From the IMG/VR virus record IMGVR_UViG_3300013103_000070, positions 1 through 21,371 of that record: 21,371 nucleotides of DNA. The stretch is one strand, 5' to 3'. A program made the translations under genes and the position numbers. Positions within the stretch are counted from its first letter, which is position 1. Every line of letters begins with the position of its first letter. The notes below the pieces were generated by a model. The model made no database searches. It worked only from the letters and a program-made list of their open reading frames with translations, and was not told the DNA's origin. The stretch comes from a virus. Positions 2,349-20,926 of the stretch are shown piece by piece.

Positions 2349-3844
2349 TACCTCTGGCCAAGCCTGCCCCTGGTGTGGAGGCCAGGGAGCAGGAGATCCA
2401 GGTACACCTGGGAGAGCTGGAATCTCTGGTTCAGGACTACCAAAAGATCGGAGGGCAGATGCTCTATGATTTCCTGGTCTCGGCCCTGCCCACCATCATC
2501 CGCCGCAAGAAACCAGCAGCCGAGGTGTTCAAAGGTCTGGAGAGGTGTGTCTACAACATGATGCTTTTGGCATATCTCTTGGGATGGGTTCATGTCACGG
2601 AGCTAGCTCGGGGAGAGGCAATATTTGCCGAGATAGTGCCCGAGCCCCTGCCGATGGAGGAGGCCATTACCCTTTTCAAGGCCCGGGTGCCCCTGGAGCC
2701 CCAGGAGTTCTATGCTTTACAGGCCCCCTTGAGGCTTCGAGCCTTTACCGTGGCCCGTCTGGTGGGTCTGGACGCTATAAACCGGGTGAAGGAAGCCATC
2801 TCCCGGGTCCTGGAAGAAGGGCAAACCCTTAGCCAGTTTTTGGAAGAGGTGGGGGCCCAGGCAGTGATCCAGCGGGCTGGATTCGACACCACCAGCCCCT
2901 GGTACTGGGAGACGGTCTTTCGCACCAATGTGATGAGCGCCTACTCCTCAGGGCGGTGGGCAGCCATCCAGAAGCACAAGGGAGCCTTTCCTTACCTGGA
3001 AATTCTCACCATTCCCGACGAGAGGCGCTGTCCCATCTGCGGCCCTTTGCACGGTATGGTGAAGCCCGTGGAAGATCCTTTTTGGCAGAGCCATCACCCT
3101 CCTCTGCACTTCAATTGTCGGTGCGTGGTGAGGCCCATCCACAAGAGAGAAGCCCAGGACATGAACATTGAGCCCAGCCCGGTGAGGACCCAGGATCTAC
3201 CTCCGGTGATGGAGGGTTTTGGCGGCGTGCCCTCTCTGGCCGCCCTGCCTCCCTCCATGTTGGAAAGGGCCAGGGAATACGGCATCCTGGACGAAGTGAT
3301 GGGCCTGGCAGAGAGATTGGGCCTGTCCTGGATGGCAGACCCCCTGGAGGCGGTCGTAAGGGCCAAAGAGGATACCATTGTCCACCTGGATCACGAGAAG
3401 TGTTTCGTTTTTGACTCTTCTGGAAAGACAGTCTTTCAAAAGGAAGGAAAAGAAAGCAGCATTTTTCTTACTAAAGAGGAGGCGGAGAAGCTTAGGAATC
3501 GAGTCTTTACCCATAACCATCCTGGCGGAGCTAGCTTTTCATGGGCTGACATAGACACCCTTTGGAAGACCGGGCTAAAGGAGATCAGGGCCGTGACAAA
3601 AGAGTTTTTGTATAGAATGAAAATCTTAGAACCCGGGGAGGGCCTCCAGAAAGCAGAGAAAATGTGGTGGGACTTGTTTAGGAAAGCACGTGAAGAACGC
3701 GGGAAAGAAATACAGCGGTTGATAGACGATGGGTTTGCGCCCGATGAAGCGGGTAGAATGGCATGGGCAAGGATGACTCATGAAATCTGGTTGCAGATAA
3801 CCGCCCAAGTTCCCTGTCTCAAATACGAAAGGCTACGGCGATGA
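2345..3844 (+). CDS. MuF head morphogenesis protein with C-terminal JAMM-like extension
   Basis: This minor head protein (Mu gp30 / SPP1 gp7 type) is associated with the portal and with early prohead assembly. The 499-residue product starts at GTG inside the portal stop. Residues about 190-265 carry the MuF core: FRTNVMSAYSSGRW, the RCPIC pair (C229, C232), LHG, then PPLHFNCRC (C258, C260), which together could bind a metal. After about residue 300 there is an extension not needed for the MuF role. It has a Glu (E351) ahead of a VFDSSGK strand, then H390-N-H392-P followed by Ser399, Asp402 and Asp404, resembling the JAMM/MPN metalloprotease site, and a helical tail. Phage MuF proteins often carry C-terminal effector-like domains. 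The catalytic reading is inference. Its 3' end overlaps the convergent minus-strand gene by 12 bases. Confidence 0.88.
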   Translation: MIPLAKPAPGVEAREQEIQVHLGELESLVQDYQKIGGQMLYDFLVSALPTIIRRKKPAAEVFKGLERCVYNMMLLAYLLGWVHVTELARGEAIFAEIVPEPLPMEEAITLFKARVPLEPQEFYALQAPLRLRAFTVARLVGLDAINRVKEAISRVLEEGQTLSQFLEEVGAQAVIQRAGFDTTSPWYWETVFRTNVMSAYSSGRWAAIQKHKGAFPYLEILTIPDERRCPICGPLHGMVKPVEDPFWQSHHPPLHFNCRCVVRPIHKREAQDMNIEPSPVRTQDLPPVMEGFGGVPSLAALPPSMLERAREYGILDEVMGLAERLGLSWMADPLEAVVRAKEDTIVHLDHEKCFVFDSSGKTVFQKEGKESSIFLTKEEAEKLRNRVFTHNHPGGASFSWADIDTLWKTGLKEIRAVTKEFLYRMKILEPGEGLQKAEKMWWDLFRKAREERGKEIQRLIDDGFAPDEAGRMAWARMTHEIWLQITAQVPCLKYERLRR

Positions 3845-4045
3845 TTTGGAGTCTTTGCGGCTCTTGCGGTAGCGGCAGGTGTCCTCCTCTTTGTCCCAGA
3901 CGGCTTCTATTATGTCCCTGTCGGAGATAAATTTGTTTACTGCCAAGCACTCCCATGTTTCGGGGTCCAAATACTTACAGCCGAAGCAGATTTCAGGGAT
4001 GCCGCCATCTACGCGGCAGAATATTTCCTCACGTGTTTTCGCCAT
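3833..4045 (-). CDS. Small Cys-rich protein, minus strand, unknown function
   Basis: This is a 70-residue protein on the strand opposite to the late genes. I chose the start at 4045 because AAAAGGGGG lies a few bases upstream and a sigma70-like promoter at 4064-4093 lies inside the longer reading frame that would start at 4114. The protein reads MAKTREEIFCRVDGG, then CFGCKYL, WECLAV and DTCRYRK, giving five cysteines including one CxxC pair, with a Lys/Arg/Ser-rich tail. This suggests a small metal-binding or disulfide-bonded protein. No signal peptide or membrane segment is seen. It interrupts the head operon as an independently transcribed cassette, the arrangement called a moron in phage biology. 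It could act during lysogeny or as a regulator, but I do not recognise the family. Confidence 0.7.
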   Translation of the reverse strand: MAKTREEIFCRVDGGIPEICFGCKYLDPETWECLAVNKFISDRDIIEAVWDKEEDTCRYRKSRKDSKSSP

Positions 4046-4063
4046 GTTGTCCCCCTTTTCCCT

Positions 4064-4250: not shown

Positions 4251-4272
4251 CCCCAAGGGAGAGGGGTCAGGC

Positions 4273-4356
4273 TCATGGGTGATAGCTCATGGCTGATGGC
4301 TGATAGCTGATGGCTGATAGCTCATAGTTCATGGCTCATGGCTGATGGCTCATGGA
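4273..4356 (+). repeat. Heptanucleotide tandem array B (T[C/G]AT[G/A]GC)n
   Basis: Twelve 7-base units alternate among TCATGGC, TGATGGC, TGATAGC, TCATAGT and TCATGGG. The last unit, TCATGGA, supplies the ATG at 4352 that begins the longest form of the protease reading frame. As in array A, the block ends in TGGAGGA and is followed at once by a nonamer block, so the pair behaves as one composite element. Confidence 0.92.
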
Positions 4357-5722
4357 GGACCAGATAAACCAGATAAACCAGACAAACCAGACAAACCAGA
4401 TTTGGCAGGTTTGGCAATGGCTTGGGTCAGATACCTTTATATATAGGCTCAAGATGTGGCTGGAGCTGGCTAAAATAGGGCAGTACAACGGTAAGGAGCT
4501 CACCCGTTCCGATTTCGAGCAAGTGGTGGAGACTTTTCAGGGTGAGGCGCCTGTAACCTTGGGCCATTCTTTCGCCGACTTTATGCCCGCCTTTGGCTGG
4601 GTTAAGGCAGTGAAGCTGGAGGACGAGACCCTCTACGGCGACGTGGATCTTTTGCCGCTTCTGAAGGATGCCTACGATAAGGGCTTTTTCAAAAAGTGGT
4701 CCATTGGCTTGCGCAAGAACTCCGAAGGCAAAAAGTACCTTCATCATCTGGCCTTTCTAGGCAGCGTTCCGCCCCTCATCAAGGATCTGAAACCCGTGGG
4801 CCAGGTAGCCTTTAGCGATGATGTGGAGATCTTCGAATTTGCCGCTCTGGAGGCGGACAAGCTGGGCGTCATTGCCAGGGCTCTCACAGGTTTGAGGGAG
4901 TGGCTCCTGGAGAAGTTTGGCAGGGAAGACGCCGATAAAGTGGTGCCTCCCTACGATCTGGACTGGTTGAAAGAGCCTCCTGCCCAGAACTTTGCCGACT
5001 CCCCTCCTCCCCTGTCCAAGCTACCCATCAAGGAGGTGGCCTGGGACAACGATGGGGCCAGGGCCCGGGTTTTCGAGAAGTATGGGATAGCAGGGCTCAA
5101 GGCCTACTGTCTCTACCGAGACCCCAAGAGCGATCCCGAAAACAAGACGGCCTATAAGTTTCTGGTGGTAGACATAGTGGACGGGAAGCCTGCTCTGGTG
5201 CCCAAGGCCGTGGCAGCGGCCCTGGGATACCTCCACGGTGCCAGGGGTGTCCAGATAGACGCTAAAGTGGCCAAGGCGGTGGAACCCAAGCTTTTGGCCC
5301 TGAAGGAGCGAATAGACAAGGAGAAAAAGAAGGAGGAGCCCATGAAATTTTCCGATTTGCCCAAAGAGGAGCAGGAAAGGCTATTGGCCGAGGCCAAGGC
5401 CCAGGTGGCCCAGGAGTTTGCCGATAAGGAACGTGCCCTTACCGGTGAGCTCTTGGCCCAGAAGAAGAGAGAGCTAGAGGAAGCTATCAAGGGCAGGGTG
5501 CCCAAGGAGAAACATCCTCTGGTGCTGGCCCTGGCCGATGCCATGAGTCCCGTGGAGAAGATGGAGTTCTCCGACGGTGACACCAAGTACGAAAAGAGCC
5601 CCCTGGATGTGCTCATCGAGATCTTCAAGGCCCTGCCATTGCCGGTTCAGCCAGGGGAGCAGGACTTTGGCGATCCCCCTACTCTGGATAAGCCCCTGGG
5701 GGATCTGACCAAGTACATGTGA
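4352..5722 (+). CDS. Head maturation protease (Mu gpI-like) with scaffold domain
   Basis: This protein cleaves head proteins, including its own scaffold part, during prohead maturation. Up to 456 residues. After an NQ-rich N-terminus encoded by the nonamer array, the recognisable fold runs from MWLELAKIGQYNGK to about residue 165, with VTLGHSFADFMPAFGWV, KKWSIGLR and YLHHLAFLGSVPP. The His of GH, the Ser of WSIG and the later His residues would suit the serine protease active site of this group. A middle domain (about 215-320) with YKFLVVDIVDGKP is often seen in these proteins. The last 126 residues form a charged helical scaffold. The ATG at 4352 has no clear Shine-Dalgarno site. The in-frame ATG at 4454 starts exactly where the conserved domain begins and is a serious alternative. 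Confidence 0.87.
   Translation: MEDQINQINQTNQTNQIWQVWQWLGSDTFIYRLKMWLELAKIGQYNGKELTRSDFEQVVETFQGEAPVTLGHSFADFMPAFGWVKAVKLEDETLYGDVDLLPLLKDAYDKGFFKKWSIGLRKNSEGKKYLHHLAFLGSVPPLIKDLKPVGQVAFSDDVEIFEFAALEADKLGVIARALTGLREWLLEKFGREDADKVVPPYDLDWLKEPPAQNFADSPPPLSKLPIKEVAWDNDGARARVFEKYGIAGLKAYCLYRDPKSDPENKTAYKFLVVDIVDGKPALVPKAVAAALGYLHGARGVQIDAKVAKAVEPKLLALKERIDKEKKKEEPMKFSDLPKEEQERLLAEAKAQVAQEFADKERALTGELLAQKKRELEEAIKGRVPKEKHPLVLALADAMSPVEKMEFSDGDTKYEKSPLDVLIEIFKALPLPVQPGEQDFGDPPTLDKPLGDLTKYM
4358..4402 (+). repeat. Nonanucleotide tandem array B (AACCAGAYA)n
   Basis: Five 9-base units (GACCAGATA, AACCAGATA, AACCAGACA twice, AACCAGATT) follow heptamer array B directly. In the protease frame they encode QIN/QTN triplets. 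Degenerate units may continue as TGGCAGGTT just after. The units match those of array A, 3.3 kb upstream. Confidence 0.9.
5342..5722 (+). CDS. Nested internal-start head scaffold protein (gpZ-like)
   Basis: A scaffold made separately from the 3' third of the protease gene, as known for lambda C/Nu3 and Mu I/Z. AGGAGG at 5331-5336 stands five bases before an in-frame ATG at 5342, one of the strongest ribosome sites in the window although it lies deep inside a gene. The 126-residue product begins MKFSDLPKEEQERLLAEA, continues as a Glu/Lys/Ala-rich helix suited to coiled coils, and ends in a Pro-rich stretch and GDLTKYM. It would assemble with the capsid protein and be removed by the full-length protease. 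The function is inferred from position and the site. Confidence 0.72.
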   Translation: MKFSDLPKEEQERLLAEAKAQVAQEFADKERALTGELLAQKKRELEEAIKGRVPKEKHPLVLALADAMSPVEKMEFSDGDTKYEKSPLDVLIEIFKALPLPVQPGEQDFGDPPTLDKPLGDLTKYM

Positions 5723-6326: not shown

Positions 6327-7319
6327 ATGCCTGTGAACATAGACCTTAGAGAGTTTTTCACCCCCGAGGCGGTGGCTCAGGTACTAAAGACCCTGCCGCC
6401 TCTGAAGACCCCCGTGGTGGACACTATCTTTCCCGACAGCAAGCGCAGGCAACACGGGCTGCCTGTGGTAGGCGTGGACGAGATCGTGAAGACCACCAAC
6501 GCCGTGCCTGTGGTGAGGAGGGGATCTCCCAGCGTGCCTATTGGCGACGAAGGACGGACCATCACCTACATCGAGCCCCAGCCCATAGACGTGAATTCCT
6601 TTTTCACGGCCAAGGACCTCAATGACCTGAAACTCTTGGATAAGGCAGGGCGTCAACAGGTGGTGACCAACAGGATAGACGACATGCGTCGGGTGGTGAG
6701 GGCCACCACGGAAGGGTTGGCATCCCAGGCCCTCACGGGACAGATCGCCTGGCCCATGAAGACCGAGGGCGGGGTCCTGGACACCTACCAGGTGGGTTTT
6801 GGCTCTCCCCTTACCTACTCCCCGGATCTCACCTGGGGCGATGCCAACAAGAAGGCCAAGGACATCCTGAACGATCTCATCCAGATGGAGTCCCAGGTCC
6901 AGGATGAGTCGGGCTACGCCGAGATGAAGATCTGGGCGGGGCGTCAGGCCTTCCTGGCCTTGGCCGGGGTGGTGGAGAACATCTCCAACAAGAGCGCCAT
7001 CAAAGTGAGCATCTCCGAGAGGGCCATCAACCTGGCCGGATACAGCGTGGAGCTCATGAATGTGAGCTACTACGACCCCGCCACCAAGACCAGGAAGAAG
7101 ATCGTGGACGAGAAGAAGGTGGTGATGTGGGCCAACGATGCCCCCTTCACCCTTCTTTACTGCGCCATTGATGACATGAAGGCGGGGCTTTTGCCCATGC
7201 CCTTCTACGCAAGGCCCGTGGATGAGGATGATCCATCGGGCGTGAAGATCCTGGGTAAGAGCAAGCCCCTGCCTATACCTGTGCCCAAAGCTATTTGCTG
7301 GGCCACGGTGGTGAGCTGA
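6327..7319 (+). CDS. Major capsid protein, phage capsid E family (HK97-like fold)
   Basis: Main shell protein of the icosahedral head. AAGGAGGT lies just upstream of the ATG, a full-strength site fitting a highly expressed protein. The 330 residues follow the lambda gpE pattern: an N-terminal part with VVDTIFP, then VVRRGSPSVP and the IEPQPIDVN segment; a helix with RIDDMRRVVRATTEGLASQAL; and a C-terminal part with SYYDPATKTRKKIVDEKKVV, AIDDMKAGLLPMPFYARPVD and ending in PLPIPVPKAICWATVVS. Although other head genes are Mu-like, this pair (gpD-like plus gpE-like) is of lambda type rather than Mu gpT. The stop codon TGA at 7317 is also the first unit of heptamer array C, so gene and repeat array overlap. 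Confidence 0.88.
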   Translation: MPVNIDLREFFTPEAVAQVLKTLPPLKTPVVDTIFPDSKRRQHGLPVVGVDEIVKTTNAVPVVRRGSPSVPIGDEGRTITYIEPQPIDVNSFFTAKDLNDLKLLDKAGRQQVVTNRIDDMRRVVRATTEGLASQALTGQIAWPMKTEGGVLDTYQVGFGSPLTYSPDLTWGDANKKAKDILNDLIQMESQVQDESGYAEMKIWAGRQAFLALAGVVENISNKSAIKVSISERAINLAGYSVELMNVSYYDPATKTRKKIVDEKKVVMWANDAPFTLLYCAIDDMKAGLLPMPFYARPVDEDDPSGVKILGKSKPLPIPVPKAICWATVVS

Positions 7320-7428
7320 TGGCTGATGGCTGATGGCTGATGGCTGATGGCTGATGGCTGATGGCTGATGGCTGATGGCTAATGGCTGATGGCTAAAAAC
7401 TATCAGCTATGAGCTATCAGCTATGAGC
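7317..7428 (+). repeat. Heptanucleotide array C with inverted half
   Basis: Nine exact TGATGGC units at 7317-7379 are followed by TAATGGC and another TGATGGC (to 7393). After TAAAAA the same family appears in opposite orientation (CTATCAGCTATGAG, twice, 7400-7428). The first TGA is the capsid stop codon, and every unit contains the stop-start overlap TGATG. The two orientations allow a long imperfect hairpin. Unlike arrays A and B there is no nonamer block. It fills the only sizeable gap between capsid and connector genes. Confidence 0.93.
7385..7407 (+). other. Hairpin at the centre of array C
   Basis: GCTGATGG (7385-7392) pairs with CTATCAGC (7400-7407), with one G-T pair, around the loop CTAAAAA. 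Pairing can continue outward with few mismatches toward about 7350 and 7428 because both flanks are heptamer units. No U-run follows, so it is not a standard terminator. It could lower or stabilise transcript levels after the abundant capsid message. Confidence 0.6.
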
Positions 7429-8973: not shown

Positions 8974-9705
8974 ATGGCTGGTTTCCTTGGAAAAGGCGAG
9001 GTTTATATTGATAGAGATCTCCAGGGCAAGTTTCTGCCCATAGGCAATGCCATTAAGTTTGCCATTGCCGAGACGGAGGCGGATGTCAAAGAGAGGATCT
9101 CCCGGCGGATAGATACCTACGGCCAGGCCCTGGATAGGGTGGCCCTGGCCAAGCCCGCCAAGATAACCATCGAGCTCAATGAGATCGACGCCAAAAACCT
9201 GGCCGTGGCCCTGCGGGGGCTGGTGGAGGATGTGACAGATAGTGGGAGTGTTACCGGAGAGGATGCCACAGCAGCCCTGGGAGCCTACGTGAAGCTGGCC
9301 CACGATGGTATTGACGAGGCCACTGTTGCTGTGACCAACGAGGACGGCTCCACCACGTACACGAAGGACACGGACTACGAGATCCGGGGCTCCGTGGGTC
9401 TCCTCAAGGCCCTGGAAGGCGGAGATATCACTGACGGTCAGGCTCTCAAGGTGGACTATCAGTACAACGAAACCTGCAAGAAGATCCTGGGCTCCAAGAA
9501 GACGGAGATCGAGGGCGCCCTCATTCTGGAGGGCATCAACATGGCGAACAACAAGGCCTGCCGGGTCTATGTCTGGAAGGCCAGGCTCATGCCCACCAGC
9601 GAGGTGGACTTCCTGGCCGAGGACTTTACGGGCATTACCCTGGAGGGCACCCTCCTCACGCCTCCCAACAAGACGGAGCCTTACGAAGTGAGATACGTGG
9701 AGTAA
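8974..9705 (+). CDS. Major tail tube protein
   Basis: This protein polymerises into the hollow tail tube through which DNA passes. The 243 residues start MAGFLGKGEVYIDRD and include GNAIKFAIAETEADVKERISR, KPAKITIELNEIDAKNLAVAL and, near the end, KTEIEGALILEGINMANNK and TGITLEGTLLTPP, a pattern seen in siphophage tube proteins. Between about 115 and 165 is an insert with VTNEDGSTTYTKDTDYEI and ITDGQALKVDYQY, a short beta module often placed on the outside of the tube. No tail sheath gene precedes it, which argues for a non-contractile tail. It is followed by the chaperone and tape measure genes in the standard order. Confidence 0.82.
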   Translation: MAGFLGKGEVYIDRDLQGKFLPIGNAIKFAIAETEADVKERISRRIDTYGQALDRVALAKPAKITIELNEIDAKNLAVALRGLVEDVTDSGSVTGEDATAALGAYVKLAHDGIDEATVAVTNEDGSTTYTKDTDYEIRGSVGLLKALEGGDITDGQALKVDYQYNETCKKILGSKKTEIEGALILEGINMANNKACRVYVWKARLMPTSEVDFLAEDFTGITLEGTLLTPPNKTEPYEVRYVE

Positions 9706-9724
9706 AGCAATGGGTGGAGTGAGG

Positions 9725-10048
9725 ATGTCTAAAAAGGTGCGCCTGGGCGACAGGGATGTGATGGTCAAAGAGCTCACCGTAGCCCAGGTGCGCCAGCTCC
9801 TGGACGAGTTTGAGAGGCCCGGGGAGGTCCACGTGCTGGACATGATGTTCGAGGAAGCTCCGGCTATGGCTCTATCCATGAGCACTGGCTTGGAAGTGGC
9901 CGAGCTTGAGGAGTATTCCCCTAGCGAGCTGGAGCCTTTGAAAGAGGCTTTTCTGGAAACCAACCCTTTTTTCGTCCGTCTGGTGAAGCGTCTGTCCAGG
10001 ATAGGCCGGGAGGCATTGAAGAACTCGATAGAGGAATCTGCTGGCTGA
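9725..10048 (+). CDS. Tail assembly chaperone, unshifted product (gpG-like)
   Basis: Chaperone that keeps the tape measure soluble and recruits tube protein. From ATG 9725 it has 107 residues: MSKKVRLGDRDVMVKELTVAQ, an acidic middle (LEVAELEEYSPSELEPLKEAF) and NPFFVRLVKRLSRIGREAL. GGAG at 9716-9719 is five bases from this ATG. An upstream in-frame ATG at 9710 also has GGAG seven bases before it and would add five residues, so the start is open. Two canonical slippery heptamers overlap at NPFF (9964-9973), allowing the longer GT product. Low sequence similarity is usual in this family; position and the frameshift make the case. Confidence 0.8.
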   Translation: MSKKVRLGDRDVMVKELTVAQVRQLLDEFERPGEVHVLDMMFEEAPAMALSMSTGLEVAELEEYSPSELEPLKEAFLETNPFFVRLVKRLSRIGREALKNSIEESAG

Positions 10049-10152
10049 TCATGTGGGGCCACAGCCAGGTGTGGGATTACGGGTTTGGCTGGTTTGTGAA
10101 GGCCCTTCAGGCCACGACCGAGTTACTTAAAGAGAGAAACAAAGGCCCATAG
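9725..10152 (+). CDS. Tail assembly chaperone fusion made by -1 frameshift (gpGT-like)
   Basis: After the slip at 9964-9973 the -1 frame stays open for about 60 codons to TAG 10150-10152, through the end of the unshifted gene. The extension reads RPSGEASVQDRPGG, then CWLIMWGHSQVWDYGFGWF and a final helix KALQATTELLKERNKGP. The total is about 142 residues from ATG 9725. A Trp/Tyr-rich segment in this place is typical of the T part, which binds the tape measure or tube. An ATG at 10051 lies inside the extension but has no ribosome site, so the extension is best explained by frameshifting. Its last 30 bases overlap the convergent minus-strand membrane gene. Confidence 0.75.
9964..9973 (+). promoter_or_regulatory. 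-1 frameshift slippery site C CCT TTT TTC
   Basis: In the zero frame the bases read C CCT TTT TTC. They contain two overlapping X XXY YYZ heptamers, CCCTTTT and TTTTTTC. Slipping back by one base allows full re-pairing in the second and mostly in the first. It lies about 80 bases before the zero-frame stop, the usual place in siphophage chaperone genes. Confidence 0.75.
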
Positions 10153-10432: not shown

Positions 10433-13400
10433 ATGGCTTTGGTGAGCGCCCTGGACATTGTGATACGGGTTAAACCCGAAGGCGGGGTGGCTATTCGCCG
10501 CCTGGAAAAGGATGTTCGGGGCACCCTGGGGCGCATTCGCATCGAAGGACAGAAGACCTCCAAAGGGCTAAAACACGCCTTCGATGTGCTTCAGTTCCGC
10601 CCTTTGAGGGAGGTGGAACGGGATATCAAAAGGATCCGGGCTGCCTATGCCCGCCTGGCCCGCTCCGGGCAGCTTTCCGGCCGGGAGCTCTACAAGGCTC
10701 AAATCCAGATGAAGACCCAAATAGCTGCTCTCCGGGCTGAGACCAACGGATGGGTCAATGCAATGGCCCAGGCCAAGATGGGGCTTTTAGGCCTGGCTGC
10801 GGCGGGATATTCCGTGGTGAAGGTCTTTGGGGCCTACGAGGGCTACACCCAGCGCATGGCCGAGGTGTTCACCCTGGTAGATGCCTCCCGGGAGAAATTC
10901 GCCGCCCTGTCCCGGGAGATCCTGGAGATGACCAGGCGCATTCCACAAAGCGCTGAAGAGCTGGCCGCCGCCGAGTACGACATCATTTCCGCCGGGGTGG
11001 CCATGTCCAAATCCACCAAGGTGCTGGAGCTATCGGCCAAGGCAGCCGTGGCAGGGGTGACGGACACCAAGACAGCGGTGCGAGCGGGCCTGGGGGTTCT
11101 CAATGCTTACAGCATGGGAATAGACCGGCTGGGGCACGTGTACGATGTGCTCTTCGAAACGGTGCGTCAGGGAGTGACTACCTTCCCAGAACTCTCCCAA
11201 TACCTGGGGGAAGTCTTGCCCGTGGCTACGGCAGCCAAGGTGGGGTTTGAGTCTGTGGCGGCAGCCATCGCCACCATGACCAAGGCAGGCATGAGGACGC
11301 CCATTGCCACCACGGCACTAAAAGGCGCCATAAAGGCGCTTTCTGTGCCTACCCCAGAGGCCAAGAAAAAGTTTGAGGCCCTGGGAATCACCTGGAAGGG
11401 GCTAATCCCCACTTTGGAGGAGCTAAAAAAGCGCTCTTTGAGCCTAAACCAGCTCAGGGCCCTTGTTCCGGATACGGAAGCTTTAAACGGTGTCATTACC
11501 CTTCTCAATCACCTGGACGGACTCAAAAAGACCCTGGGCGACATGAAGGGGGCCGCCGGAGCAATGGAGGAGGCCAACAGCAAGATGGCCGACACGCCGG
11601 CCAACAAGATCAAGCTCTTTAAAAACGAACTGGAAAACCTGGAGATCCAATTGGGAGGGGTGTTGTCTAAGGGATTGTTGCCAGTAGTAGAGGGTTTGGA
11701 GCTTTTTGTCGGGGGGCTACAAGAGGCAGATCCAGCAACCAAAAGTCTTGTAACCATACTTGCGGCAGGTCTTAGCGCCTTGGCCCTGTGGCGCTTAGGG
11801 CTAGCCAGCCTGGTGATGGGATTAAAGGGACTGGCCATTGAGGCCGGGGCAGCTGCGGCATCCACAGGGGCCCTCGGTGTGGCCCTGGGAGCCATGAACG
11901 TGGCCTATGCCGCCATCCAGATTGGGCGTTTGGCCTATCAGATCAACGAATACAGAAGGGCCCTGGCCCACCTTCGCGAGGCCCAGGACTACTGGGAAAA
12001 GCAGGCCCAGGCCCACAAAGATTTCGCCGAGGTGGAGATAAAGACCCAGGCGGAACTGGCGAAGATGACCGATGAAGAGCTGGAGCAGTACCGGCGACGC
12101 CTGGCCGGGGCCATTCGATATTATGGCTTCTTGAAGGCTTCCCTGACCGCTCAGGCCCAGGAGACCAACTGGCTGGGGAAGAAGACTGAGGCGGCCAAAG
12201 AGGCGGAAAAGGAGCTGGGAAGGCTCACCCAGCAACAAGAGCAGTACATCCAGGCCGTAAGAGAGTTGCGCAAAGAGGCCGTGGCTCCCGTGGAGGGGTT
12301 TGACTCGGCCAAGTTGGCCACCGACTGGAAGACCCTGGCTGATTCCCAGAAAAAGGCCATCGGTGAGCTGGGCAAGTCTGTCCGGGAACTCATGGTGAGC
12401 TATCGCCTCCAGGAGAAGGAGCTGGAACTGAGCCTCTCCGGGGCCAAACGGGAGCAGGCGGTGAATGCCCTCAGAGCTAAGATGTACGATGAGCTCACCG
12501 TAAAGGTGCTCAACTTCTACGCCGAGCGGTCCCGGGCCCTGGATGCCTATCTGGAGGAATTGAGAACCGAGGCTTCCAAGGAAGGGGCCAACGCTCAAGA
12601 GATCGAGATGTACCAGGAAGAGATCCTGGCAGCCAAGGTGAGGGTGGCCAGGGAGGCCAAGGCTGCCATTATCGCCGCCCTGGACGAAGCCCTGAACAAG
12701 GAGCGCCAGTACACCCGGGAGATCGAGAACTTGAACCGACAGATTGCCGCGGCCCAGATGGACCTGGAAAGCCAGCTGAGAGATTTGAGGCGCTCCCGCA
12801 TGGACCAGGAGGAGGCCCAGGCCGATAAGATGAAGGAGGCCTGGGAGAAGGTCTCCAGGGCCCAGGCCGAGCTGGCCAGGGGCAACTACGAGTTGGCCAA
12901 GAAGGGTTTTGGCGACGCCCAGAGGCTCTTTGGGGAAGTGGCCAGATCGGCCAAGGATGAGGGAACCTTCCGGGAAGCCTACAGGGGCTTCGAAGAGGCT
13001 GGTCAGGGGGCCATTCGGGTAATGGAGCAGATCCGGGCTGAGAAGCAAAGGGCCTTGGAGGACTTGCGCCAGAGTATGGAGGGGTTGAGCGGCCTACTGA
13101 AGAACCTCAACACCAAGCTGGCGGAGTTTGCTAAGGAGCTCACAGGTATCCCCCAAGAACGAAAAGCCCAGATCCTCTTCGGGGCCGTGGGCCTGGACGA
13201 CATCAAGCGGGAGTACGACGCCATCAGGGACAAAACGGTGACGGTAACAGTGAAACAGCAGACCGTGGAGGCCCATTCCGGTGGCGGGCTGGTAGGTTGG
13301 AGGCGTTTTGCCACAGGCGGCAAGGTGCCGGGCTGGGGGGGCAGGGATACGGTGAAGGCTTGGTTAACCCCTGGCGAGTACGTGCATACTACCAAGAGCG

Positions 13401-13669
13401 TAGCCTATTACGGTGTGCAGGCCATGCGGGCTATCAATGAGCGCCTCATCCCCAGGGAGGCGCTGTTGAGCTTGGTGCCTGGGCTCAGGGTACGGATGCC
13501 AACTGTGCCTGTGCCATCTGGTGTTCACAGGTCGTCTTTCCAGCACCAGGAGGTCCACGTCCATCTCACCGCCTCCCAGGTGGCGGCCATGACCCAGAGG
13601 GGCAAAAGACTTCTGGAGGAGCTAGGTGAGGAGATTGCCCTGGTCATGGCCAGAGGAGGGACCATCTGA
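10433..13669 (+). CDS. Tail tape measure protein, TP901-type core
   Basis: Sets tail length and is released during DNA entry. The 1078 residues contain the TP901 core at about 130-330 (AEVFTLVDASREKFAALS, AAEYDIISAGVAMSKSTK, AGLGVLNAYSMG, PELSQYLGEVLPVATAAKVG, TALKGAIKALSVPTPEAKK). Hydrophobic Ala/Gly-rich stretches follow (about 440-505), then long Glu/Gln/Lys/Arg-rich coiled coils (about 505-925). The C-terminal region has HSGGGLVGWRRFATGGKVPG and DTVKAWLTPGEYV, seen at the end of many tape measure proteins. With the common rule of about 0.15 nm per residue the tail would be near 160 nm, an estimate only. The start uses the palindromic GGGAGG site. The stop overlaps the next gene (TGATG). 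Confidence 0.92.
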   Translation: MALVSALDIVIRVKPEGGVAIRRLEKDVRGTLGRIRIEGQKTSKGLKHAFDVLQFRPLREVERDIKRIRAAYARLARSGQLSGRELYKAQIQMKTQIAALRAETNGWVNAMAQAKMGLLGLAAAGYSVVKVFGAYEGYTQRMAEVFTLVDASREKFAALSREILEMTRRIPQSAEELAAAEYDIISAGVAMSKSTKVLELSAKAAVAGVTDTKTAVRAGLGVLNAYSMGIDRLGHVYDVLFETVRQGVTTFPELSQYLGEVLPVATAAKVGFESVAAAIATMTKAGMRTPIATTALKGAIKALSVPTPEAKKKFEALGITWKGLIPTLEELKKRSLSLNQLRALVPDTEALNGVITLLNHLDGLKKTLGDMKGAAGAMEEANSKMADTPANKIKLFKNELENLEIQLGGVLSKGLLPVVEGLELFVGGLQEADPATKSLVTILAAGLSALALWRLGLASLVMGLKGLAIEAGAAAASTGALGVALGAMNVAYAAIQIGRLAYQINEYRRALAHLREAQDYWEKQAQAHKDFAEVEIKTQAELAKMTDEELEQYRRRLAGAIRYYGFLKASLTAQAQETNWLGKKTEAAKEAEKELGRLTQQQEQYIQAVRELRKEAVAPVEGFDSAKLATDWKTLADSQKKAIGELGKSVRELMVSYRLQEKELELSLSGAKREQAVNALRAKMYDELTVKVLNFYAERSRALDAYLEELRTEASKEGANAQEIEMYQEEILAAKVRVAREAKAAIIAALDEALNKERQYTREIENLNRQIAAAQMDLESQLRDLRRSRMDQEEAQADKMKEAWEKVSRAQAELARGNYELAKKGFGDAQRLFGEVARSAKDEGTFREAYRGFEEAGQGAIRVMEQIRAEKQRALEDLRQSMEGLSGLLKNLNTKLAEFAKELTGIPQERKAQILFGAVGLDDIKREYDAIRDKTVTVTVKQQTVEAHSGGGLVGWRRFATGGKVPGWGGRDTVKAWLTPGEYVHTTKSVAYYGVQAMRAINERLIPREALLSLVPGLRVRMPTVPVPSGVHRSSFQHQEVHVHLTASQVAAMTQRGKRLLEELGEEIALVMARGGTI

Positions 13670-15720: not shown

Positions 15721-16314
15721 ATGACCTCTATTAACCTCATCCTCTTCTGGGGCCAGCCCCAGGGAAACGTTTACAAAGCTTCTGGCGGCGCCGTTACGGG
15801 CGGCTCCGCCGATGTGTCGGTCTCTGTTGTCTACGAGGCTAGCGGCGGTGCTGTCACGGGGGGCTCGGCGGATTACAGCCTGGAGCTGCCCTATTCCCAT
15901 GAATACGTAGCCAGCGGCGGTGCCGTTACTGGTGGCGAGGCCGATGTTTCGATTTCTGTTTTCTACGAGGCCAGCGGTGGTGCTGTCACGGACGGTGAGG
16001 CTGATATTTCAGTTTCCGCCGTCTACGAGGCCAGCGGTGGCGCTGTCACGGGCGGCTCTGCCATCGCCTGGATGACCCTCCGGGAGTACGAGGCCAGCGG
16101 CGGTGCTGTCACGGACGGTGAGGCTGAGCACGCCCTGGAGCTGGCCTATGAGGCTTCCGGTGGCGCTGTTGCGAGCGGCTCTGCCATCGCCTGGATGACC
16201 CTCCGGGAGTACGAGGCCAGCGGCGGGGCCGTCACTGGGGGCTCTGCTCTCACGGTCTACATGGGAGCCTGGGATGTCACCCCTGTACCCCGGGTCCAGA
16301 GGTTTGCCGCATGA
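15721..16314 (+). CDS. ASGGAVTGGSA tandem-repeat structural protein
   Basis: 197 residues: a short MTSINLILFWGQPQGNVY head, then eight copies of an 11-residue core [KEV]ASGGAVTGGSA (variants DGEA, GGEA, ASGSA) separated by 8-11 variable residues such as DVSVSVVY or IAWMTLREY, and a tail VTPVPRVQRFAA. The Gly/Ala/Thr/Val pattern with a regular period suggests stacked beta turns as in a fibre shaft. AAGGA lies five bases before the ATG. Two 50-base stretches are identical, showing recent internal duplication. The stop shares ATGA with the hub-like gene. I do not know a named family; a tail-fibre shaft or tip accessory fits the position. Confidence 0.7.
   Translation: MTSINLILFWGQPQGNVYKASGGAVTGGSADVSVSVVYEASGGAVTGGSADYSLELPYSHEYVASGGAVTGGEADVSISVFYEASGGAVTDGEADISVSAVYEASGGAVTGGSAIAWMTLREYEASGGAVTDGEAEHALELAYEASGGAVASGSAIAWMTLREYEASGGAVTGGSALTVYMGAWDVTPVPRVQRFAA
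16054..16226 (+). repeat. 50-bp perfect direct repeats inside the repeat-protein gene
   Basis: Bases 16054-16103 and 16177-16226 are identical. The offset is 123 bases, that is 41 codons or two protein repeat units, so the reading frame is kept. Recombination between the copies would add or remove two repeats. Confidence 0.85.
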
Positions 16315-20177: not shown

Positions 20178-20552
20178 ATGAAAAAGCTTATGTTTCTTAT
20201 GGTTGCTGTCTTTATGTTTTCTTTGACTGCCCTAGCGTTCGACGTGCAACGAATCGTATGGGATCAAAATATTTGCTCAACAAACGGAGCCTTCTGTTTT
20301 AGGGGCAATATTGAATATGATAGAAAATCCAAGGACATAAGCATAAACGGGCGTTTCAGCAAAAGCTCGGGTCCCGGGATTGTCACGATATGGTTTGAGG
20401 GAGTAACCAGCGGCGGAAAGAGAGCCGTGGTGCACATGTCTTTCAAAGTGAGGGGACGTTATAGCGAAATAGTGCGGCACAGCGTATACACCGGCTACTG
20501 GGGCCAAGTAGATTGGCATCTGGATGATATAACCTTTGAGCCTTTAAAGTAG
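20178..20552 (+). CDS. Small exported protein, unknown function
   Basis: 124 residues with a clear signal peptide (MKKLMFLMVAVFMFSLTALA, cleavage likely after ALA). The mature part is beta-rich: FDVQRIVWDQNICSTNGAFC, NIEYDRKSKDISINGRFS, VTIWFEGVTSGGKRAVVHMSF, ending in VDWHLDDITFEPLK. Two cysteines nine residues apart may form a disulfide in the periplasm. A G-run (GGGGGGG) seven bases before the ATG acts as ribosome site. The DNA is A/T-rich compared with the head genes. Lying after the tail genes near the likely phage end, it is a candidate lysogenic-conversion or superinfection-exclusion gene. No family recognised. Confidence 0.68.
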   Translation: MKKLMFLMVAVFMFSLTALAFDVQRIVWDQNICSTNGAFCFRGNIEYDRKSKDISINGRFSKSSGPGIVTIWFEGVTSGGKRAVVHMSFKVRGRYSEIVRHSVYTGYWGQVDWHLDDITFEPLK

Positions 20553-20563
20553 GTGCAGAAGTC

Positions 20564-20926
20564 ATGCCTAAAGCCAGGGCCTGGATGAGATGGGTTACGC
20601 TACTGGCGTTTGCAGTGGTTTTTAGTCTACCTGCCCTGGCAGGAACCCCAGAAATCGGAGGGACTGCCAAAGTAGCAGGCTCCAGCTGGGTCGGATGCAA
20701 AAACAGAGAGGAGCTAGAAAAGCTCAGCGAATATGCCCATCAGCATGACGAGGTTGCGTTCAAAAAGCTATTGGCTAGGGACCTAGCTAATGGAGAATGC
20801 CGCTACATGAAAAATGGCGAAACGGTCTACATCACCGATGTATCAATCCTGGGATATACCAAGGTAAGACCCCGTGGCGAGATAGACGAATACTGGGTAT
20901 TAACCCAAGCTCTGGAGCCCCAATAA
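20564..20926 (+). CDS. Small exported Cys-pair protein, unknown function
   Basis: 120 residues. A basic start and hydrophobic core (MRWVTLLAFAVVFSLPALA) form a signal peptide with cleavage after residue 26. The mature part has GTAKVAGSSWVGCKNREELE, a helix (KLSEYAHQHDEVAFKKLLA), NGECRYMKNGETVYITDVS and TKVRPRGEIDEYWVLTQAL. The two cysteines probably bridge the helix to a small SH3-like barrel. Periplasmic proteins with a similar C...G-C-R pattern and K-V-R-P-R-G stretch occur in other bacteria, but I cannot name a function. The start is uncertain because there is only GGTG upstream; M8 or M10 would be alternatives. It follows the previous gene by 11 bases. Confidence 0.65.
   Translation: MPKARAWMRWVTLLAFAVVFSLPALAGTPEIGGTAKVAGSSWVGCKNREELEKLSEYAHQHDEVAFKKLLARDLANGECRYMKNGETVYITDVSILGYTKVRPRGEIDEYWVLTQALEPQ

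Follow-up and report, generated by a model that had tools for sequence, protein, structure and literature searches.

IMG/VR record IMGVR_UViG_3300013103_000070 is a viral sequence of 21,371 bases (hereafter the window, meaning the whole of this stretch) that carries head and tail genes of a siphophage, including a Mu-type portal gene (PF06074 match). The question raised by this locus is whether the short open reading frame (ORF) at 9725-10048, located between the major tail protein gene and the tape measure gene, gives rise to one protein or to two. Its sequence and its relatives indicate that it is very probably a tail assembly chaperone gene of the G/GT type, in which a minority of -1 slippage events would yield a 142-residue fusion protein. 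The device itself is already known; what is new is a broad family of frameshifted chaperones.

Slippery site and fusion protein

The zero frame was taken to start at 9725, on the basis of a Shine-Dalgarno (SD)-like tetramer upstream, with an alternative ATG start at 9710, and ends at the TGA at 10046-10048. Within this frame, CCCTTTTTTC (9964-9973) consists of two overlapping heptamers, each in the X XXY YYZ phase. The -1 frame is open from 9970 to 10149 and ends at the TAG at 10150-10152; its reading after the slip is RPSGEASVQDRPGGIEELDRGICWLIMWGHSQVWDYGFGWFVKALQATTELLKERNKGP, and a slip on either heptamer gives the identical 142-residue fusion (...NPFF-RPSGEAS...). The original prediction for this locus, made from the sequence alone, described two overlapping canonical heptamers followed by a Trp-rich extension that has no ribosome site of its own. 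This description is accurate. Both heptamers are present and in phase, 5 of the 60 residues of the extension are Trp, and the extension's own ATG at 10051, 2 bases past the zero-frame stop, has its nearest GAGGA (10031-10035) 15 bases upstream; such a spacing is beyond the usual distance of a ribosome site. The predicted length of 60 codons past the zero-frame stop confused two figures, as the -1 frame comprises 60 codons counted from the slip and 34 codons beyond the stop.

In the proposed mechanism, most ribosomes would translate the zero frame up to the TGA and release a chaperone of 107 residues, while a minority would slip back one base and produce the fusion, with its Trp-rich C-terminal part encoded by the -1 frame. 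Judging from lambda, the first half may serve to coat the tape measure protein, with the extension recruiting the tail tube protein; both would depart before the virion is completed.

How easily such an arrangement arises by chance was estimated from 20,000 shuffles, in which the codons of the zero frame were shuffled and the downstream DNA was dinucleotide-shuffled. Some in-phase heptamer was found in 26% of the shuffles, and 0.8% had one whose -1 frame stayed open for 34 codons or more after the stop. Hence, the window taken alone is suggestive rather than conclusive. An in-phase heptamer with a -1 frame that passes the stop was found in 3 of the 22 window ORFs tested, including the chaperone ORF. 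Within the portal ORF, CCCTTTT at 2315 is in phase and its -1 frame is that of the next gene (start 2345). TTTAAAG at 20543 is in phase in ORF 20178-20552, where the -1 frame continues for 124 codons past the stop and the next listed ORF starts at 20564.

Conservation among related loci

Scans of viral contigs with the fusion or the major tail protein as single queries returned zero relatives. The tape measure protein as query led to two viral contigs, L003 and L004, which opened the chaperone family. In addition, tblastn gave weak matches of the fusion to Pseudomonas phage F10 and related phages (33 records, E 0.09 to 0.3), and the 20 matches listed all start at fusion residue 82, i.e., at the slip. 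In each of L003, L004 and F10, an in-phase heptamer is accompanied by a -1 extension that can be aligned. An alignment of these three with the window, extension included, was used to collect a first set of 80 loci (the best 80 of 111, from viral contigs), 79 of which have heptamer and extension. Since the extension was part of this query alignment, the count of 79 is not independent evidence, and the search was therefore redone with a query restricted to the sequence upstream of the slip.

This second search gave an independent set of 12 genome loci and 43 loci from viral contigs. The genome loci include contigs of Pseudomonas, Cycloclasticus, Desulfogranum, Desulfococcus, Magnetococcales, Rhodocyclaceae, Methyloversatilis, Halothiobacillus and Phycisphaerae. 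Each of the 55 loci combines an in-phase heptamer with a -1 extension; the extensions are 46-67 residues long, and 48 of them are distinct. The extensions share the consensus LER...ALI..GH...W.YPW..F..A, in which the conserved dipeptide is G-H in 48 loci and G-Y or G-C in the other 7, followed by an aromatic motif. Among the 48 distinct relatives the sequence of the heptamer varies while its phase is constant. The first in-phase heptamer is T TTT TTC in 27 of them, C CCT TTT in 7 and T TTT TTT in 6, with A AAC CCT (4), T TTT TTG (3) and T TTT TTA (1) as rarer forms. Within the genus of L105 (P. citronellolis), 9 of 25 genomes contain 10 loci, one of them (L156) at the same place as L105, and all 10 have heptamer and extension.

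Selection and possible stimulators

Every one of the 33 distinct loci with Phe-Phe at the slip uses TTT, the codon that the heptamer requires, for the first Phe, compared to 1108 of 3253 Phe codons (34%) in the long ORFs of the same loci, although the loci are related and these are not 33 independent events. Beyond the zero-frame stop, the extension of the relatives is under purifying selection. The proportions of nonsynonymous and synonymous differences (pN/pS) in this part were 0.03/0.24 for L141 and L148, 0.08/0.56 for L105 and L122, and 0.05/0.30 for L133 and L138, and in close pairs the ratio of nonsynonymous to synonymous substitution rates (dN/dS) was as low as 0.09-0.2. These measurements were made in relatives, as no relative is close enough to the window for its own copy.

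Possibly, slippage in the relatives is stimulated by an internal Shine-Dalgarno sequence. An SD-like tetramer is located 6-14 bases ahead of the slip in 30 of the 50 distinct loci, where the frequency at upstream positions would predict 7.4, and the anti-SD energy peaks about 7 bases upstream of the slip; the window has no such tetramer at that spacing. Yet, the Glu codon GAG was used in 32 of 43 cases at the SD-like region and in 179 of 251 upstream, which is no difference. The excess of SD-like tetramers may thus be accounted for by conserved Glu-Val-Asn residues. Structure in the downstream mRNA is not claimed as a stimulator; the mean z score of the set was -1.05, with 11 of 50 loci below -2.

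Family assignment and known chaperone systems

All 19 first halves compared with PHROGs matched phrog_7608, a family of 'unknown function'. Weak matches were found to two families named 'tail assembly chaperone', phrog_1442 (9 of 19) and phrog_344 (7 of 19), with a best E of about 0.001. None of 23 extensions matched a PHROG at E below 0.06. The predicted structure of the first half has a predicted local distance difference test score (pLDDT) of 92.7, and its top VIA match is the HK97 chaperone 2ob9 (Z 4.3, root-mean-square deviation 4.0, 72 residues), a match that is weak and unreliable alone. No convincing sequence relatives were found in the PDB. The annotated chaperone of JBD30 shares a VTVRELS segment with the first half (hhalign probability 73, 22 columns).

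Together, the gene order, the in-phase heptamers, their conservation in 55 of 55 loci, the selection on the extension and the first half's similarities, weak yet consistent, to tail assembly chaperones are the grounds for the G/GT assignment. The gene order is that expected of a G/GT chaperone, with the ORF flanked by the genes for the major tail protein and the tape measure protein. The original prediction had named, among the outcomes that would speak against it, loss of the heptamers or of the open -1 frame in close relatives, and both were kept throughout the independent set. Its G/GT interpretation is thus well supported, but it overlooked an antisense membrane-protein gene next to the extension (see below). 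The assignment would give phrog_7608 a function, namely as the N-terminal half of a tail chaperone extended by frameshifting. A limited literature search on this family found nothing relevant. PHROGs has no family for the second half, so that annotation of these genomes covers just half of the gene.

The slippery heptamer of lambda is G GGA AAG, in contrast to the two overlapping C/T heptamers of the window. The arrangement as a frameshifted chaperone is shared with lambda G/GT and HK97 gp13/gp14, without significant sequence similarity and with only the weak fold match to the HK97 chaperone. In lambda, a low-level -1 slip produces a fusion whose first and second halves bind the tape measure protein and the tail tube protein, respectively (PMC5009743).

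Closer at hand, the gp012-type ORF of Pseudomonas phages F10, MD8 and LESphi2 belongs to the same family, as it has an in-phase T TTT TTC and a homologous -1 extension. In the records of these phages the ORF is called a hypothetical protein or a tail assembly protein, and none contains a joined coding sequence at this place. The MD8 paper uses the word frameshift once, for the lambda stf gene (PMC8508860). An extra sense gene is found directly before the chaperone gene in MD8 (NC_031091, 10588-11115, BamE-like) and in F10 (NC_007805, 8679-9311, prepilin-type by annotation).

The chaperones of D3112-like and JBD30-like phages also have T TTT TTC and a -1 extension in common with the family of the window, but their first halves are only distantly alike and their extension is not detectably related. 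In JBD30 this extension has 86 codons and ends at the tape measure gene. A frameshift was predicted in the D3112-like phage PaMx73, in core ORFs 35/36 (PMC4378225).

Alternative explanations

The extension might be a separate small protein, translated by re-initiation at the ATG at 10051 without any frameshift. The window does have a suitable TGATCATG arrangement, and a Met at that place also occurs in relative L022. However, this ATG comes after conserved residues of the extension and has no ribosome site at the usual distance, and re-initiation would not need the in-phase heptamers that all independent loci retain. We therefore regard re-initiation as highly improbable. An alternative source of the -1 product might be slippage of RNA polymerase, instead of the ribosome, on the run of T residues. 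This is plausible for the T9 run of L003 and L022 (one contig), and the window has a T6 run. Yet, T6 is short for polymerase slippage, 4 of the 48 distinct relatives have A AAC CCT without a run, and the X XXY YYZ phase is always retained, which makes this explanation highly improbable. A chance open frame or a sequencing error would be in line with the ease with which some in-phase heptamer arises in shuffled sequence, but the observed open length is rare in the same shuffles, and the conservation and selection across dozens of contigs refute it; this explanation is extremely improbable.

Several results nevertheless weigh against a G/GT-type chaperone gene with -1 slippage. In the window, the slip is not followed by mRNA structure (z +0.47) and the nearest SD-like tetramer ends 16 bases upstream of it, which leaves the heptamer pair as the only pointer to a stimulator. 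Beyond the zero-frame stop, the median pN/pS was 0.45 among 126 pairs in the chosen range, and one close pair had a dN/dS of 1.08, a value resting on about two changes. One locus of the first set (L066, 1 of 80) has an altered end of the extension. The fold match to 2ob9 is weak also by Foldseek (E 5.2), and hhalign detected no similarity between the extension and those of HK97 and JBD30. Furthermore, in 6 of 12 phage regions fetched the tape measure gene starts within about 70-120 bases of the related major tail protein gene, so that these six have no chaperone gene at the usual place. The six regions are L006, L007, L008, L009, L011 and L015 (HS6, MuM16-1, PCA1, ACF1, B8b and 1/44).

Antisense gene before the tape measure gene

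The window extension and the tape measure gene are separated by 280 bases, mostly occupied by an antisense ORF that shares its 3'-terminal 30 bases with the end of the extension. An antisense gene at this place differs from the G/GT systems of lambda and HK97, and also from the F10-like loci, where the extension ends 1 base before the tape measure gene and no antisense gene is present. We surveyed 59 loci, consisting of the 55 independent loci, the window and L093-L095, which were added because the antisense gene had already been seen in L093 and L094; in 2 of the 59 the start of the tape measure gene was out of reach. In 33 of the remaining 57 loci the gap measures -32 to +70 bases, and none of these has a minus-strand ORF of 40 codons. 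The other 24 loci (22 distinct) have a gap of 119 to 828 bases, and 22 of these 24 contain a minus-strand ORF, with two hydrophobic segments in 17 and one in 5. In L128 and L129, copies of one phage with a large gap, a minus-strand ORF with two segments is found only under slightly wider limits. Two hydrophobic segments occurred in 0-2% of dinucleotide shuffles. A further locus with the antisense gene is L155.

Selection on this ORF was likewise tested in relatives, the window copy having no relative close enough. When the six frames were compared in four close pairs, pN/pS was lowest for the minus frame in three pairs (0.30, 0.25 and 0.40), and the minus frame was tied in the fourth (0.63). 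In several Pseudomonas-type loci the ATG of the antisense gene and that of the tape measure gene share CATG. A search for a sigma-70-like site for the antisense ORF gave none on either strand, and weak terminator-like sites on the minus strand numbered two, against 1.3 expected. The antisense proteins had no convincing family in PHROGs (10 queries) or NCBIfam (9), except for the zinc-ribbon part of L139, and tblastn of the L093 protein against phages gave no match. A limited search of the literature for membrane-protein genes placed antisense between the genes for chaperone and tape measure found nothing relevant.

The gene of HK97 gp15, a moron, lies exactly between the chaperone and tape measure genes and likewise encodes a small predicted membrane protein. 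In contrast to the mostly two hydrophobic stretches of the antisense proteins, gp15 is encoded on the sense strand and has one N-terminal hydrophobic stretch followed by a polar tail. Because gp15 is on the other strand and built differently, the comparison is an analogy of place and likely use, and not of membership. A role of gp15 in superinfection exclusion, and its dependence on the tape measure protein, are summarised in PMC10883804.

By this analogy, we propose that the antisense membrane protein might block superinfection. In its full form the idea is speculative, and we consider it possible but rather unlikely. Throughout this chaperone family, the gap between the GT and tape measure genes would then be a dedicated antisense site for a small membrane protein, mostly with two helices, that is made by the lysogen and excludes superinfection via the neighbouring tape measure protein, and these genes would be widespread equivalents of HK97 gp15 that lie on the opposite strand and have gone unannotated. 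If the antisense gene proves to be an exclusion gene, this would offer a simple rule for locating such genes beside tape measure genes.

Features of the window and other observations

Table 1. Positions of the tail genes, the slippery site and the antisense ORFs.
Sequence	Feature	Position	Strand	Evidence or remark
Window	Major tail protein, Ig-like domain type	8974..9705	+	phrog_807, E 3.3e-50
Window	Zero-frame product, putative G-like tail assembly chaperone, 107 amino acids	9725..10048	+	phrog_7608, E 3.6e-16 (9710-10045 reading)
Window	Slippery heptamer C CCT TTT, in phase	9964..9970	+	
Window	Slippery heptamer T TTT TTC, in phase	9967..9973	+	Overlaps the first
Window	-1 frame extension, putatively T-like, 60 codons + TAG, predicted 142-residue fusion	9970..10152	+	Relatives: motif conserved, purifying selection
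Window	Antisense ORF, 91 amino acids, two predicted membrane helices	10123..10398	-	Hydropathy
Window	Tape measure protein	10433..13669	+	phrog_28, E 2.9e-54; Pfam PF10145, E 1.6e-32
L003	Antisense ORF	5306-5509	-	
L004	Antisense ORF	5060-5263	-	

A second minus-strand ORF (3836-4051, 72 amino acids) is located between the ORFs at 2345 and 4352. Its product contains Cys (MAKTREEIFCRVDGG...), and PHROG and Pfam searches gave no convincing family.

The window also contains tandem-repeat arrays at 963-1014, 1026-1130, 4270-4355, 4359-4401, 7315-7394 and 7400-7428, built of 7-base units (GCTAATG/GCTGATG/GGCTCAT) and a 9-base unit (AACCAGATA). The arrays sit in the gaps directly before the ORFs at 1140, 4352 and 7442, and the 9-base array continues into what is listed as the start of the second of these ORFs. 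Finally, ORF 15721-16314 is composed of YEASGGAVTGGSA repeats.
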